From assembly GCF_019744875.1 (NCBI RefSeq), contig NZ_JAIETU010000003.1, positions 372,001 to 436,000 of the forward strand: 64,000 bases of DNA. The letters run 5' to 3'. How positions within the stretch are numbered: position 1 is the first letter of the stretch; each line of letters begins with the position of its first letter. The notes under the pieces are model-generated. The model saw only the letters and a list, made by a program, of their open reading frames with translations. It did no database searches and was not told the DNA's origin. Position numbers and translations under genes: made by a program. Below, piece after piece: positions 51,604 to 56,844 of this stretch. This stretch comes from Hyphomicrobium sp. (GTDB lineage Bacteria; Pseudomonadota; Alphaproteobacteria; Rhizobiales; Hyphomicrobiaceae).

Positions 51604-53889
51604 TCACCACTGATACTTGATCGACGTGATCACTGTGCGGCCGTTGCCATACAGGCAGGTCTCACGATTGGTGCATTGCGACACATACTTCTCGTCGAAG
51701 ATATTCGAGACGTTGAGCTGCAGCTTCGTGCCGGCCATGCGCGGTGACAGCGCCCCGAAATCGTACTGCGCCGCCGCGTCGAAAAGCGTGAAGTCCGGCA
51801 CCTCCAGAGTGTTGTCCTCGTTGCCCGCGGATTCGCCCACGTAGCGCACGCCGCCGCCGAACCCGAGCCCCGCCAGCGGCCCATCTTCGATGCGATAGAA
51901 CGCCCAAAGTGCGGCGAGCTGATCTGGGATGTTCAGGGGATGCTTGCCGAGGATTGTCGGGTTGAGGCTTTCGGTAATCTCGGCATCGACGAGCGTATAG
52001 GACCCGATCAGGTCAAGCTGATCCGTGAGGCTGACCTTTCCTTCCGCCTCAAACCCTCGCGAGTGGACCTCGCCAATCTGCACGCGAGTGGCCGGCAAGA
52101 CCGGATCAGCCGTGACAACATTCTGCTGCGTGAGGTCATAAGCGGCGAGCGTAAAGAGCGCCTTGTATCCCGTCGGCTCGTATTTGATGCCGACCTCGTA
52201 CTGCTCGCCCGTCGTGGGCTCGAAAGCACGCCCTCCTGAGGAGCCCAGCGTCGGCTGGAACGACGTCGAATAGCTGACGTACGGCGCAAATCCACCGTCC
52301 AGCAGATAAGTGATGCCGTACCGTTGCGTGAACTCTTCGTCATCCTGGCTGTTGTCGAGCGCCACGCCCAGCAAATCGTCGGTGCTCGTGGAGGCATAGT
52401 CCTGGCGCAGACCGAGAGTGAAGACCGCCCGGTCCCACTTCACCTGATCCTGCACATAGATGCCCGTCTGATCGAGCACCTGATCGGTGATTTCAGGTGC
52501 GCCCGGCACCAGGATCGAGGTGTCGCCGTAAACGGGATTGAAGATGTCGATGGGCGCGCCAAGCGACAGATTGACGAACGACCGTTCGTTGAGATGCTGA
52601 TAGTCCACGCCGAACAGCAACGTATGCGCGAGCGGCCCCGTGCGGAACTTCGCCTCTGCATTGGTGTCGACGGAGAACGCGTCGATGTCGGCCGTTTGAT
52701 CGACGACGAAGCGAAGCATCGTAGTGGGATCGAGCATGCCGTCCGGAAACGGCAGGAACTGGTGCACGGCGCCGTCGGTGTGCATGTAGCGAAGGTTCTG
52801 GCGCATCGTCCAGCTGTCGTTGAGGTGGCTCTCGAAAGCGTAGCCGACCGACTGCTGGTCGCGGTTGTTGACGTTGTAGGAGGGCTCGCCAAGGAACCGG
52901 TGGCGCGGGATTTCGCCGAACGGGCTTGGCGTGACCGAACCGTAAGACGGAATGTTATTGTAAAGGCCGACGTCGGGATCGTGCTGCAGGTTGGCGAGGA
53001 ACGTCAATGTCGTACCGGTCACGGGACGCCAGGTGAGTGCCGGCGCGATCCAGTAGCGTTCCTGCTCGTTGAAGTCGACCTGCGAGTCGACGCCGCTCGC
53101 GAGCCCGCTCAACCGATAGGACCACCTTTTGTCGGAATCGACGGGGCCGCTGAAATCGAATGCGGCCTGAACGCGGTCGAAGTTTCCAAATGAAAGCTGG
53201 ATCTCGTGAAAGGGCTCGTCGGTTGGCCGTTTGCTGATGGCGTTGACGATACCGCCCGGCGATGCCGAGCCGTAGAGCATCGAGGCCGGCCCATGCAGAA
53301 CCTCAAGCCGCTCGAGACCGTAGAGTTCGATCTGCGGTGTCGTGTAGTTGGCGCCACCGAGATACTTGAGACCGTCGAGGTAGCGGTCGAGAACGAAGCC
53401 TCTTGAGTAGACGATGTCATAGCCGCCGAACGCCGACCGCGTGCCCGCGGCAACGCCGGACGTGTATTGAAGCGCCTCTTTCACGCTGGTGGCGCTTTGC
53501 TGGTCCATCTGATCGCGCGTGACGACCGAGACGGCTTGCGGTGTCTCGATCAAGGGCGTGTCGGACTTCGTCGCCGTGCCGCTGACTTTGGCGACGAACC
53601 CCTGCACGGGGCTCACAGCGGTTTCCGGGCGGTCTTGTGCGCGCGCAGCAGGCTCGGGCGCAGGCGCGGCCTGAACCGATGTTTGCTGCTTAGGCTTGGA
53701 AGGCGCGGCCTTTTTCTTGGCTGGCGTCTTCGTCGCAGTCGCTTCCACCTCAATCGGGGGAAGCTGCGATGAAGGCTGCGGCTGTTCGCTTGCCGTCTGC
53801 GCCAAGGCCGGATGAGCAACAATCGTCGTCGCGAGGCAGAAAGAGCCTCGGAGAAGCCGAGACCGGAAGGCTCTGTTGGACAGCCGCAT
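51604..53889 (-). CDS. TonB-dependent siderophore receptor
   Basis: A 761-residue outer-membrane receptor. A signal peptide ends near AQTAS, followed by an about 90-residue Ala/Pro/Lys linker. The plug domain begins about residue 100 (SDTPLIETPQAVSVVTRDQM, QYTSGVAAGTRSAFGGYDIV, LEVLHGPASMLYGSASPGGI), and a 22-strand barrel follows, with paired Tyr-rich strands and ending IKYQW, a terminal aromatic. Plug and C-terminal block NIFDEKYVSQC are those of FhuA-like ferric-siderophore receptors. No fecR/fecI-type regulator or ABC transporter is adjacent. I could not identify a convincing iron-responsive operator upstream. Confidence 0.93.
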   Translation of the reverse strand: MRLSNRAFRSRLLRGSFCLATTIVAHPALAQTASEQPQPSSQLPPIEVEATATKTPAKKKAAPSKPKQQTSVQAAPAPEPAARAQDRPETAVSPVQGFVAKVSGTATKSDTPLIETPQAVSVVTRDQMDQQSATSVKEALQYTSGVAAGTRSAFGGYDIVYSRGFVLDRYLDGLKYLGGANYTTPQIELYGLERLEVLHGPASMLYGSASPGGIVNAISKRPTDEPFHEIQLSFGNFDRVQAAFDFSGPVDSDKRWSYRLSGLASGVDSQVDFNEQERYWIAPALTWRPVTGTTLTFLANLQHDPDVGLYNNIPSYGSVTPSPFGEIPRHRFLGEPSYNVNNRDQQSVGYAFESHLNDSWTMRQNLRYMHTDGAVHQFLPFPDGMLDPTTMLRFVVDQTADIDAFSVDTNAEAKFRTGPLAHTLLFGVDYQHLNERSFVNLSLGAPIDIFNPVYGDTSILVPGAPEITDQVLDQTGIYVQDQVKWDRAVFTLGLRQDYASTSTDDLLGVALDNSQDDEEFTQRYGITYLLDGGFAPYVSYSTSFQPTLGSSGGRAFEPTTGEQYEVGIKYEPTGYKALFTLAAYDLTQQNVVTADPVLPATRVQIGEVHSRGFEAEGKVSLTDQLDLIGSYTLVDAEITESLNPTILGKHPLNIPDQLAALWAFYRIEDGPLAGLGFGGGVRYVGESAGNEDNTLEVPDFTLFDAAAQYDFGALSPRMAGTKLQLNVSNIFDEKYVSQCTNRETCLYGNGRTVITSIKYQW

Positions 53890-54010: not shown

Positions 54011-54505
54011 CTACTCCAGCTCCTCGTCACGCATCAAAACAATGATCAGCACCAGCGCAAAGCATGCGGCGAAGCGGAAGGCCGCCGCCTGCGCGTTCCA
54101 CGTCTGCGATTGCCACATCTTGAACCACTCGCCGCCGACGACGAGGAAGCCGCCGTAGTAGAGCAGGAAACCGAACGTGAGGCCCGCGACCGCCAGCCCC
54201 TTGGCCGCGTTGAAGCGCGCCGCCGACGCACCCCTCAGCCTGAACAGCCGCCACGCGCCGGCAAGGCACAGCGCACCGCACGCAAGCTCCGCCGCGATGA
54301 TCAGCCAGTAAGCGACATGCTGCAGCCAGGGCGCGGTGATCGCCCGCCAGCGCAGCGCGGAATCGGGAAACGTCGTGTCCATCGAGAGCACATGCTCGAC
54401 GAACCGGAGATTGGTGCCATAGTCGAGAAGGTTGTCGATGCCGACCAGCAGCGCAAAAGCGCCGACCGAAGCGACCAGCAGAACCTTGGACAGTCGGACG
54501 ATCAT
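54011..54505 (-). CDS. DUF2165-family membrane protein
   Basis: A 164-residue membrane protein with four predicted helices (for example [74 protein letters not shown]). The conserved N-terminal block [20 protein letters not shown] and the later [14 protein letters not shown] match DUF2165. ATG at 54505; it is divergent from the ECF sigma gene and shares the promoter region with it. Function unknown. Confidence 0.85.
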
Positions 54506-54547: not shown

Positions 54548-54578
54548 GGGAACCTTTCCAGCCAGCCAGCATCCAATG
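54548..54578 (+). promoter_or_regulatory. Candidate ECF sigma promoter ahead of the sigma gene
   Basis: GGGAACCTT (54548-54556) and CATCCAATG (54570-54578), with 13 nt between them. The same two blocks at the same spacing recur at 55302-55332 in front of the next gene. The GGAAC -35 type is usual for ECF sigma factors. The likely transcript start is about 32 nt ahead of the sigma ATG. Confidence 0.7.
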
Positions 54579-54609
54579 AAGGCCAGAGTAATCGTCCGGA
54601 ACCCACCCG

Positions 54610-55299
54610 ATGCACAAGCTAAAACACGATGCGCTTCAAGAGGCACCCGACACGGAACTTGTCGCCCGCGTGCTTGCGCGCGACGAAGCGGCCGTGCGGG
54701 CCCTCATCCAGCGGTACAACAGGCGCCTCTATCGCGTGGCGCGCAGTATCTTGGGCGACGACGGCGAGGCCGAGGACGTGCTGCAGGAGGCTTACCTGCG
54801 CGCCTTCGCGGCGCTCGGCAGCTTTCGCGCCGAGTCGACGTTGTCGACGTGGCTGACCCGTATCGTACTCAACGAGGCATTCCAGCGCTTGAGGCACCAC
54901 GTAGACGTGCCGATTTCAGCCATTGGCCGCGAGAGCGGGCCTATGCAGGTAGCGGACATCATTCCGTTTCCGGCTTCGTCCCGCACCGCTTTGGATCCGG
55001 AGCGCGCCATGGCGCAATCAGAGCTTTGCCGCATTGTTGAAAGCGCCATCGACGCGCTACCGCGCGACTTCCGCGCCGTGCTCGTGGCACGAATGATCGA
55101 AGGGATGAGCGTCGAGGAAACGGCCGCGGCCTTCGATCTCTTGCCTGAAACCGTAAAGACCCGCCTGCACCGCGCACGCAAGCTTCTCAAGGACGCACTC
55201 GCGGAACACCTTGGACCGCAGTTCGCCGACGTCTTCCCGTTCGACGGCAAGCGCTGCGAGCGAATTACGGATGCGGTTGTCAGCCGCCTCGGCTTCTAG
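54610..55299 (+). CDS. ECF-type RNA polymerase sigma factor
   Basis: A 229-residue sigma-70 family regulator of the extracytoplasmic-function group. Region 2 is [20 protein letters not shown] / [20 protein letters not shown] / [20 protein letters not shown]; region 4 is [20 protein letters not shown] / [20 protein letters not shown], the helix-turn-helix. There is no adjacent anti-sigma gene; the next genes are DUF4142, a cupredoxin and folE. A 20-residue insert between regions 2 and 4 ([20 protein letters not shown]) and a 40-residue tail lengthen it relative to the usual 180-200. Confidence 0.93.
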
Positions 55300-55301
55300 G
55301 C

Positions 55302-55332
55302 GGGAACCTTCCGCCGAAACGCCCATCCAATG
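55302..55332 (+). promoter_or_regulatory. Candidate ECF sigma promoter ahead of the DUF4142 gene
   Basis: GGGAACCTT (55302-55310) and CATCCAATG (55324-55332), 13 nt apart, just past the sigma stop codon at 55299. It is identical in both blocks and in spacing to the site at 54548-54578. Confidence 0.72.
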
Positions 55333-55378: not shown

Positions 55379-55900
55379 ATGATGAGAAACTCGATGATCG
55401 GCATGGTTGCCGGTCTTGTTCTGTCGACGGCAATCGCCATCGCAGCCGACAAGCCATCCGATCCGCAGATCGCCCACATCGCCTATACAGCCGGCGATCT
55501 CGATATCAAGGCCGCGAAGCTCGCACTCGAAAAGTCAAAAAACGAGACAGTCCGCGCATTCGCCAACGACATGGTGCGCGACCATCAGGCCGTGAACGAC
55601 AAAGCGCTGACCCTGGTCAAGAAGCTCGGCGTCACTCCGGTGGACAACGAAACGAGCAAGGCCCTGATTGCGCAAGCCGAAAAAAAGCAGGCCGAACTCG
55701 CATCGCTTTCGGGCTCAGCGTTCGAGAAAGCCTACGTCGACAACGAGGTCGCCTATCACAAGATGGTCAACGACGCGCTGAGGACGACACTCATCCCATC
55801 GTCCAGCAATGCGGAACTCAAGAGCCTCTTGGAAACCGGCCTGAAGATTTTCGAGGGACACCTCCACCACGCCGAGATGCTGGCGCACACGCATCATTAG
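55379..55900 (+). CDS. DUF4142-family exported protein
   Basis: A 173-residue exported helical protein. ATG 55379 (or the next ATG at 55382) follows a GGAG site. The signal peptide is MRNSMIGMVAGLVLSTAIAI. The mature domain is a ferritin-like four-helix bundle: QIAHIAYTAGDLDIKAAKLA, VRAFANDMVRDHQAVNDKAL, YVDNEVAYHKMVNDALRTTL, and a C-terminal FEGHLHHAEMLAHTHH. Members are periplasmic and linked to stress. It is the first gene after the sigma factor, from a matching promoter. Confidence 0.88.
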   Translation: MMRNSMIGMVAGLVLSTAIAIAADKPSDPQIAHIAYTAGDLDIKAAKLALEKSKNETVRAFANDMVRDHQAVNDKALTLVKKLGVTPVDNETSKALIAQAEKKQAELASLSGSAFEKAYVDNEVAYHKMVNDALRTTLIPSSSNAELKSLLETGLKIFEGHLHHAEMLAHTHH

Positions 55901-55910
55901 TGGGGGTCAC

Positions 55911-56234
55911 ATGCGAAAAATATCAGGCGCGACATTCGCCGGGATATTTCAACTGGCGCTGACTTTCCCGTCTCAGGGAGGCGAACCCGTTCGTGTGAAA
56001 ATCACGAACCTCGCCTTCCTACCTGCGGAAATAACGGTCCAGGCCGGCGAGACGGTCGAATGGGTCAACGAGGATTTCATCGATCACACGGCAACGGAAA
56101 CATCTGAAGAATGGGACGTCCCCATTCCCGCCGAGAAATCGGCCGAGCTCAAGCTCACGCGGGCAGGGACGTTCTCTTACTACTGTCGCATCCACCCGGG
56201 AATGAAGGGGACGGTTCATGTCATCGCCAAATAG
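55911..56234 (+). CDS. Cupredoxin-like exported protein
   Basis: A 107-residue protein. ATG at 55911 has GGGGG in front and is 10 nt past the DUF4142 stop. A short signal segment ([18 protein letters not shown]) precedes a plastocyanin/amicyanin-type domain: [40 protein letters not shown], and [20 protein letters not shown]. The type 1 copper ligands are His in DHTA, Cys in YYC, His in RIHPG and Met in PGM. It could carry electrons in the periplasm, or protect against oxidative stress. Overlaps folE by 17 nt. Confidence 0.92.
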
Positions 56235-56844
56235 CAGACAAGCAGCAGTAAAGTCCCCGCCAGTCGCAGCAAACCTCTCCAAGCCAAATCGGCACGAGGC
56301 GGAAGCTGCCGTGCGCACGCTTATCCGATGGGCGGGCGACGATCCCGTACGCCCTGGCTTGCTCGAAACGCCGGCCCGCGTCACGCGGGCATTCGAGGAA
56401 TACTTCTCGGGATACGCGCTCGATCCCGAGGCCCTCTTGCGCAAGACGTTCGACGAGATCGAGAACTACGACGAGATGGTCATCTTGCGGGCCATTTCCT
56501 TTGAAAGTCACTGCGAGCACCACCTGGCGCCAATCATCGGACGCGCGTGGGTCGGCTATATTCCGGATGGCCGCGTTGTCGGCATCAGCAAACTTGCACG
56601 GGTCGTCGATGCATTTTCAAAACGCCTGCAGATCCAGGAAAAAATGACGGCGCAGATCGCCAATGCGATCGACGGAGCGCTGCAGCCGAAAGGCGTAGGT
56701 GTCGTGATACGGGCGACTCACGAGTGCATGACGACGCGCGGTGTACACAAGCCAGGAACGGAACTCGTAACGAGCAGACTGCTGGGACGCTTCCGCGACG
56801 ACCCACAGACGCGCCAAGAGTTCCTAAGGCTCGCGGCCCCCTGA
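56218..56844 (+). CDS. folE: GTP cyclohydrolase I
   Basis: A 208-residue enzyme converting GTP to 7,8-dihydroneopterin triphosphate, the first step of tetrahydrofolate synthesis. Zinc and catalytic motifs are [20 protein letters not shown] (Cys and His ligands), [20 protein letters not shown] and [20 protein letters not shown], with the second zinc Cys. ATG at 56218 has AAGGGGA in front and overlaps the end of the cupredoxin gene by 17 nt. Having folE under an ECF sigma operon is not the common arrangement. Confidence 0.97.

Follow-up and report, generated by a model that had tools for sequence, protein, structure and literature searches.

Two putative ECF29-class promoters at a sigma factor gene and its DUF4142–cupredoxin–folE neighbours in Hyphomicrobium

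The locus described here lies in a window of 64,000 nucleotides (positions 372,001 to 436,000, forward strand, of contig NZ_JAIETU010000003.1) from the Hyphomicrobium sp. assembly GCF_019744875.1, and all coordinates refer to that window. It comprises a gene for an ECF sigma factor, three genes that follow it on the same strand and two that diverge from it. An earlier note, written from the letters alone, had named the first four as ECF sigma, DUF4142, cupredoxin and folE, and a domain scan gives the same four. The features are as follows.

51604-53889, minus strand: TonB-dependent receptor, diverging from the sigma gene
54011-54505, minus strand: DUF2165 membrane protein, diverging from the sigma gene
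54548-54556, plus strand: −35 block of candidate promoter P1, GGGAACCTT, 5' of the sigma gene, of the same family as 70 aligned sites (both window sites included)
54570-54578, plus strand: −10 block of P1, CATCCAATG, included in the 70-site alignment
54610-55299, plus strand: ECF sigma factor, 229 residues, ECF29-like (NF008888, 282 bits, cut-off 204; 50% identity to S. meliloti rpoE8 over 216 residues)
55207-55296, plus strand: C-terminal extension of the sigma factor with FPFxGxRC, residues about 200-229
55302-55310, plus strand: −35 block of candidate promoter P2, GGGAACCTT, 2 nt 3' of the sigma stop codon
55324-55332, plus strand: −10 block of P2, CATCCAATG, included in the 70-site alignment
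55379-55900, plus strand: DUF4142 protein, probably exported (start picked by the analyst); predicted four-helix bundle, nearest solved fold the copper-binding CopM
55911-56234, plus strand: cupredoxin of the amicyanin/plastocyanin type, probably exported, with an intact type-1 copper ligand pattern
56218-56844, plus strand: GTP cyclohydrolase I (FolE), the second copy of the genome, its start overlapping the cupredoxin gene by 17 nt

The sigma protein contains the Sigma70_r2 and Sigma70_r4_2 domains, and its best NCBIfam model is NF008888, a model that does not carry the name ECF29 and whose curated cut-off was used as a stand-in for membership in that group. The nearest named sigma loci come from Hyphomicrobium and Filomicrobium, and the genome itself (G000) holds six matches to the protein at E 0.001 or better, one of them being the protein itself.

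The piece of information from which the analysis started was a two-block motif, GGGAACCTT-N13-CATCCAATG, which the earlier note had placed at 54548/54570 and at 55302/55324 with exactly 13 nt between the blocks. Both the coordinates and the spacing hold, and the two copies lie 754 nt apart in one locus. The bases between the blocks are unlike in the two copies (TCCAGCCAGCCAG vs CCGCCGAAACGCC), which bears out the further claim that no duplication is involved. The motif matched twice in the window vs 0 times in 100 dinucleotide shuffles of it. The note had also suggested searching the whole genome and listing the genes downstream of each match, and had named a lack of enrichment as evidence against its proposal; this check was carried out and did not refute it. 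P1 and P2 proved to be the sole matches to GGGAACC-N14-17-CATCCAA among the 4,523,470 bases of the 23 contigs (reversed-pattern control, 0), and the full 31-mer likewise has no other match there when up to 3 mismatches are allowed (control, 1 match). A looser pattern, GGGAAC-N15-17-CATCCA, adds a single site at position 84075 of contig C6, with a spacing of 17 and CGT, not CTT, after GGGAAC. The reading-frame listing contained no same-strand frame starting within 200 nt downstream of it; being without a gene at promoter distance, this site was rejected as a third promoter and taken as a chance match. Judged by the exact and near-exact searches for the motif, no part of the regulon in this genome lies outside the locus.

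The enrichment was evident when 397 genomes of the order were searched with GGGAAC-N16-17-CATCCAA, which matched at 96 places in 71 genomes. NF008888 sigmas are found in 46 of the 397 genomes, and 50 of the 96 matches lie no further than about 1.4 to 1.8 kb from such a gene, against a chance expectation of about 0.01. Counted by genome, 34 of the 46 sigma-positive ones have the exact motif next to the sigma gene, while any match anywhere was found in 37 of the 351 sigma-negative ones (Fisher p 1.3e-19, kinship ignored). Twelve sigma-positive genomes have no exact motif next to the sigma gene: 10 of them gave no DUF4142 hit in the fetched stretch, and the remaining two (G230 and G399) have a weight-matrix hit before DUF4142. 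The other 46 places are somewhat more than those of the reversed-pattern control (27, counted by hand). Seven of them belong to sigma-positive genomes and were all opened: six were put down to chance, the majority of them being located within long reading frames, and one, in G226, is the only one at promoter distance before a gene that is linked to the sigma elsewhere, that of an exported globin. The 46 places also include seven similar sites in a genus that lacks the sigma (g93); the one opened, in L203, lies inside a 350-codon reading frame and is probably coding sequence. In a class-wide search with a stricter pattern (385 genomes), seven sites were found outside the own genome, with 0 in the control. 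Five stand beside a full sigma gene, one by a 48-residue sigma-like fragment that follows a cargo gene of this kind, and the last is in a genome that has no such sigma.

The shape of the motif was examined in 66 sigma loci (746 kb). L173 was left out because it duplicates L035; the sigma genes of the other loci all differ, but many of these loci come from a few genera and are not independent. These loci contain 73 exact motifs around the sigma gene on its own strand, one elsewhere or on the other strand, and none of the reversed pattern. At least one motif is present in 49 of the 66 loci and exactly two in 24; in L049, where the DUF4142 gene diverges from the sigma, a motif is carried on the DUF4142 strand. 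The gap from GGGAAC to CATCC is 16 nt in 70 sites and 17 in three, and the 70 sites with a spacer of 16 give the consensus cGGGAACcttt-N11-gCATCCAAtg, in which the two A after CATCC, although outside the search pattern, are present in 70/70. Six loci lacking DUF4142 (L175, L178, L179, L181, L183 and L188) keep GGGAACC upstream of the sigma, with a −10 near GCGTTTAT at a spacing of about 17. This suggests that, in the sigma loci with such a −10, its specificity may have shifted inside the family.

A weight matrix made it possible to follow the promoter through different gene orders. A hit was defined as a score above the highest of 1340 single-base shuffles (12.6), and since the matrix was built partly from the loci tested, only sites outside it count as an independent test. 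DUF4142 is linked to the sigma in 49 loci; it follows the sigma in 41 of them, precedes it in 6 and diverges from it in 2. A hit lies upstream of DUF4142 in all 49, and the sigma, too, has one upstream in 44 of them, 30 of these sites having helped to build the matrix and 14 not. In the five loci with no hit before the sigma (L161, L162, L164, L166 and L187), DUF4142 and the cupredoxin precede it, so the sigma can be served by the first promoter. In both divergent loci (L049 and L228), each gene has a motif on its own strand. When DUF4142 is missing, a hit upstream of the sigma is seen in only 4 of 17 loci. Through three gene orders, the promoter moves with the genes on rearrangement.

A promoter of this kind has been described before. 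In S. meliloti, RpoE8, encoded in the rpoE8-SMb20593-amcY locus, belongs to group ECF29, and its transcription start has been mapped behind a −35 GGGAAC and a −10 GCATCCAA, a motif known for the group (PMC6180224). P1 matches this published motif in full, and P2 has C, not G, before CATCCAA. The same report notes a second motif match in the gap between rpoE8 and SMb20593; no transcription start was found before SMb20593 (PMC6180224). The pSymB stretch and the window share three genes in the same order (50% identity for the sigma, 65% for DUF4142 and 48% for the cupredoxin), the −35 and −10, and both promoter positions, the second right after the sigma stop. They differ in that the window adds a folE overlapping the cupredoxin gene, in the divergent gene (DUF2165 in the window, acyP in S. 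meliloti) and in the host, a non-nodulating Hyphomicrobium as against a nodulating S. meliloti. The promoter class is thus one already described, and the window locus is, to judge by these likenesses, a further instance of it and the counterpart of the rpoE8 locus. What the present survey adds is that the promoter pair, as recognised by its motif, is common beyond nodulating bacteria. An EcfG site can be set aside, in line with the earlier note: EcfG/ECF15 promoters have in common with the present ones the GGAAC-type −35 and their occurrence in Alphaproteobacteria, but their −10 is GTT, and at P1 and P2 it is CATCCAA. PhyR and NepR are the usual partners of EcfG; no PhyR- or NepR-like family was recognised among the six scanned proteins of the locus.

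The products of the downstream genes give some indication of what the system may serve. The model of the DUF4142 protein is a confident four-helix bundle (pLDDT 87.8), and H33, H69, E123, H127, H161 and H164 are invariant in 33/33 aligned sequences drawn from the 49 loci. Its top match among solved folds is CopM (PDB 5ffc and others), a weak one (E 1.3e-3, 12% identity), followed by DUF305 and Dps/ferritin-like proteins. CopM, a periplasmic DUF305 protein of Synechocystis, resembles the DUF4142 protein in fold, with invariant histidines in the latter, but belongs to another Pfam family, and copper binding by the DUF4142 protein is putative. The DUF305 Pfam score of the DUF4142 protein stays below the cut-off, and no PDB sequence match to it was found at E 0.01. 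In the cupredoxins, the type-1 copper ligand pattern is kept in 49/49 hits (the duplicate locus L173 included). A DUF4142 protein of a lanthanide metallophore cluster was described as ferritin-like and putatively exported in one report (PMC11317620). The natural reading of this cargo would be copper or redox handling in the envelope, and another metal is possible. In the open literature searched, no work linked DUF4142 with an ECF sigma factor and a promoter, and none joined DUF4142 with a cupredoxin. Judged by title and the start of the abstract, the papers found there on DUF4142 and sigma factors included none on this sigma, and those on GTP cyclohydrolase none on a link to ECF sigmas. The available text of a toolbox paper (PMC10880074) holds nothing on ECF29.

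The last gene of the window operon encodes an extra FolE, since another folE, 76% identical, sits on contig C3. The 17-nt overlap speaks for one transcript of the cupredoxin and folE genes. FolE adjoins the sigma in a small minority of loci. Filomicrobium (L035) shows the order P-sigma-P-DUF4142-cupredoxin-folE, and G490, which shares the class but not the order (L225, 4263-6860), shows P-folE-sigma; behind the sigma come one more promoter-like site and a protein that looks exported (DLWIGHIFWVRNV). The P-folE-sigma arrangement of G490 and the folE-ended operon of Filomicrobium argue that folE is no accident here. In L192, a protein similar to this exported-looking one comes after the sigma. 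In L165 and L193, the sigma is preceded by a globin-like protein and by a FolE that is more distant. Two further candidates were discounted. The FolE of L168, 4.5 kb from the sigma, clusters with other FolE in a 24-row tree and was considered a coincidence. The motif that G485 (L212/L224) carries before folE and an apaG-like gene, which we call so from the look of its protein, lies in a genome with no NF008888 match at E 1e-20. The same tree, in which most forks are weak, gave no support for a single clade of ECF29-linked FolE copies.

Other cargo is found where DUF4142 is lacking. In L177, L182 and L186, the promoter heads an operon of an exported-looking protein and a Tat-type cupredoxin, and the sigma comes after them. 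An exported-looking family, FLPGMGxLYVDPxTLPAGPFxAYD ... GHPGVxxPHxHVxxWH, is paired with a Tat-type cupredoxin by the sigma in L177, L182, L183, L186 and L188; the one member scanned gave no Pfam match. The G226 site mentioned above (site 4778 of L194, reverse complement), far from the sigma, is an ECF29-type promoter by its score of 34.7 and lies 176 nt before a truncated-globin-like gene. The globin is probably exported, and the same family adjoins the sigma in L165 and L193, where promoter-like sites about 120 nt before it score 11.9 and 10.4, above 99% of the shuffles and below the highest. This globin family occurs in 4 of the 397 genomes, all of them sigma-positive, two of the four having supplied the query; the chance of finding both independent ones (G260 and G337) sigma-positive is about 0.01 (by hand). 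Before the globin in G260 and G337, no site scored above the highest shuffle. To judge by these predicted products, alternative exported cargo does occur beside ECF29-type sigmas.

As for how the sigma might be controlled, none of the six scanned proteins of the locus belongs to a recognised anti-sigma family. The DUF2165 membrane protein was considered as an anti-sigma factor and rejected, as it is not conserved with the sigma: neither it (at E 1e-4) nor the TonB-dependent receptor was found beside the sigma in the other 66 loci. The sigma itself carries a C-terminal extension with FPFxGxRC, of which F211 and C216 are present in 65/65 homologues that extend to that point (L186, cut by a contig end, was left out). 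ECF29 is listed among the groups with regulatory extensions, under the mechanism 'Others', in a review (PMC8999054). Compared with ECF sigmas that have such extensions, the tail in the window is only about 30 residues long, with a single invariant cysteine. It may keep the sigma inactive or sense a signal. An AlphaFold model of the sigma, moderate in quality at pTM 0.55, does not reveal a docking place for the tail.

All these observations could be integrated by assuming that P1 and P2 are ECF29-class promoters read by the sigma factor encoded between them, which would thus govern its own gene as well as DUF4142, the cupredoxin gene and folE. This is what the earlier note had proposed, and the co-occurrence in 34 of 46 genomes, the three gene orders and the published ECF29 motif support it, at a probability of roughly 0.8; we infer the identity of the reader, and with it autoregulation, from sequence comparison. 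The possibility that the promoters are genuine but read by another ECF sigma, with the local one silent or minor, should be weighed against this. It could draw on the five further matches to the sigma protein in the genome, and on the fact that the S. meliloti orthologue, overexpressed 126-fold, activated no detected target (PMC6180224). In nodules, amcY rose 2.6-fold in a strain devoid of ECF sigmas and 3.2-fold when rpoE8-SMb20593 was deleted, whereas activation by the sigma would lead one to expect a fall; as one cause of the rise the authors suggest that an upstream promoter had come closer, and they call the regulation of RpoE8 a mystery (PMC6180224). The null result of the overexpression fits a sigma that needs activation, and equally leaves autoregulation unproven. 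Nevertheless, the motif tracks the NF008888 genes across genomes in the proportions given above, and the promoter travels with them through rearrangements, which makes another reader unlikely.

The motif might instead be a binding site for a repressor or an activator, such as a copper regulator, rather than a promoter, inasmuch as two conserved blocks at a fixed spacing could be half-sites and the cargo may be copper-related. The blocks, however, are neither inverted nor direct repeats of each other, a spacing of 16-17 nt and a GGAAC −35 are usual in ECF promoters, and one homologous site has a mapped transcription start, all of which renders such a site improbable. That the two copies stand 754 nt apart in one locus might even recall a recent duplication or a functionless chance repeat, a notion that deserves hardly any credence given the differing spacers, the empty shuffles and the conservation of the same two positions in many genomes.

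If P1 and P2 are indeed read by the local sigma, a simple scheme can be drawn. RNA polymerase with the sigma encoded at 54610-55299 would read P1 (54548-54578) into the sigma gene itself, and P2 (55302-55332) into DUF4142, the cupredoxin gene and folE, probably as one transcript. With such a positive loop, activation of the sigma would switch the system on sharply. Until then, the C-terminal extension may hold it inactive, or else it may itself sense the signal. Because the cargo consists of a CopM-like helical bundle and a cupredoxin, this signal could be a disturbed copper or redox balance of the envelope. The second FolE might keep pterin or folate synthesis running when the housekeeping enzyme is impaired.

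A broader and distinctly speculative proposal is that ECF29 sigmas are one-component copper or redox switches, in which a short tail with one reactive cysteine makes an anti-sigma factor dispensable and the envelope cargo is interchangeable (DUF4142 with a cupredoxin, an exported protein with a Tat cupredoxin, an exported globin, or another exported protein), with a spare FolE added in some species. If true, it would account for the lack of effect when the sigma is overexpressed and the signal is absent.

What is added to the known system is the second folE in the operon (found in the window, in Filomicrobium and in one distant genome), the promoter pair being widely conserved, the alternative cargo, the CopM-like model of DUF4142 and the one-cysteine tail. 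The interest of the locus lies more in the switch mechanism and the link to folE than in the promoter itself. The survey offers a testable answer on RpoE8-type control, that of a self-contained module combining a fixed promoter, a thiol within the sigma and a copper-looking envelope cargo. It also gives a possible reason for the negative outcome of the earlier overexpression screen, and the second folE would provide a target gene that can be followed by simple biochemistry.
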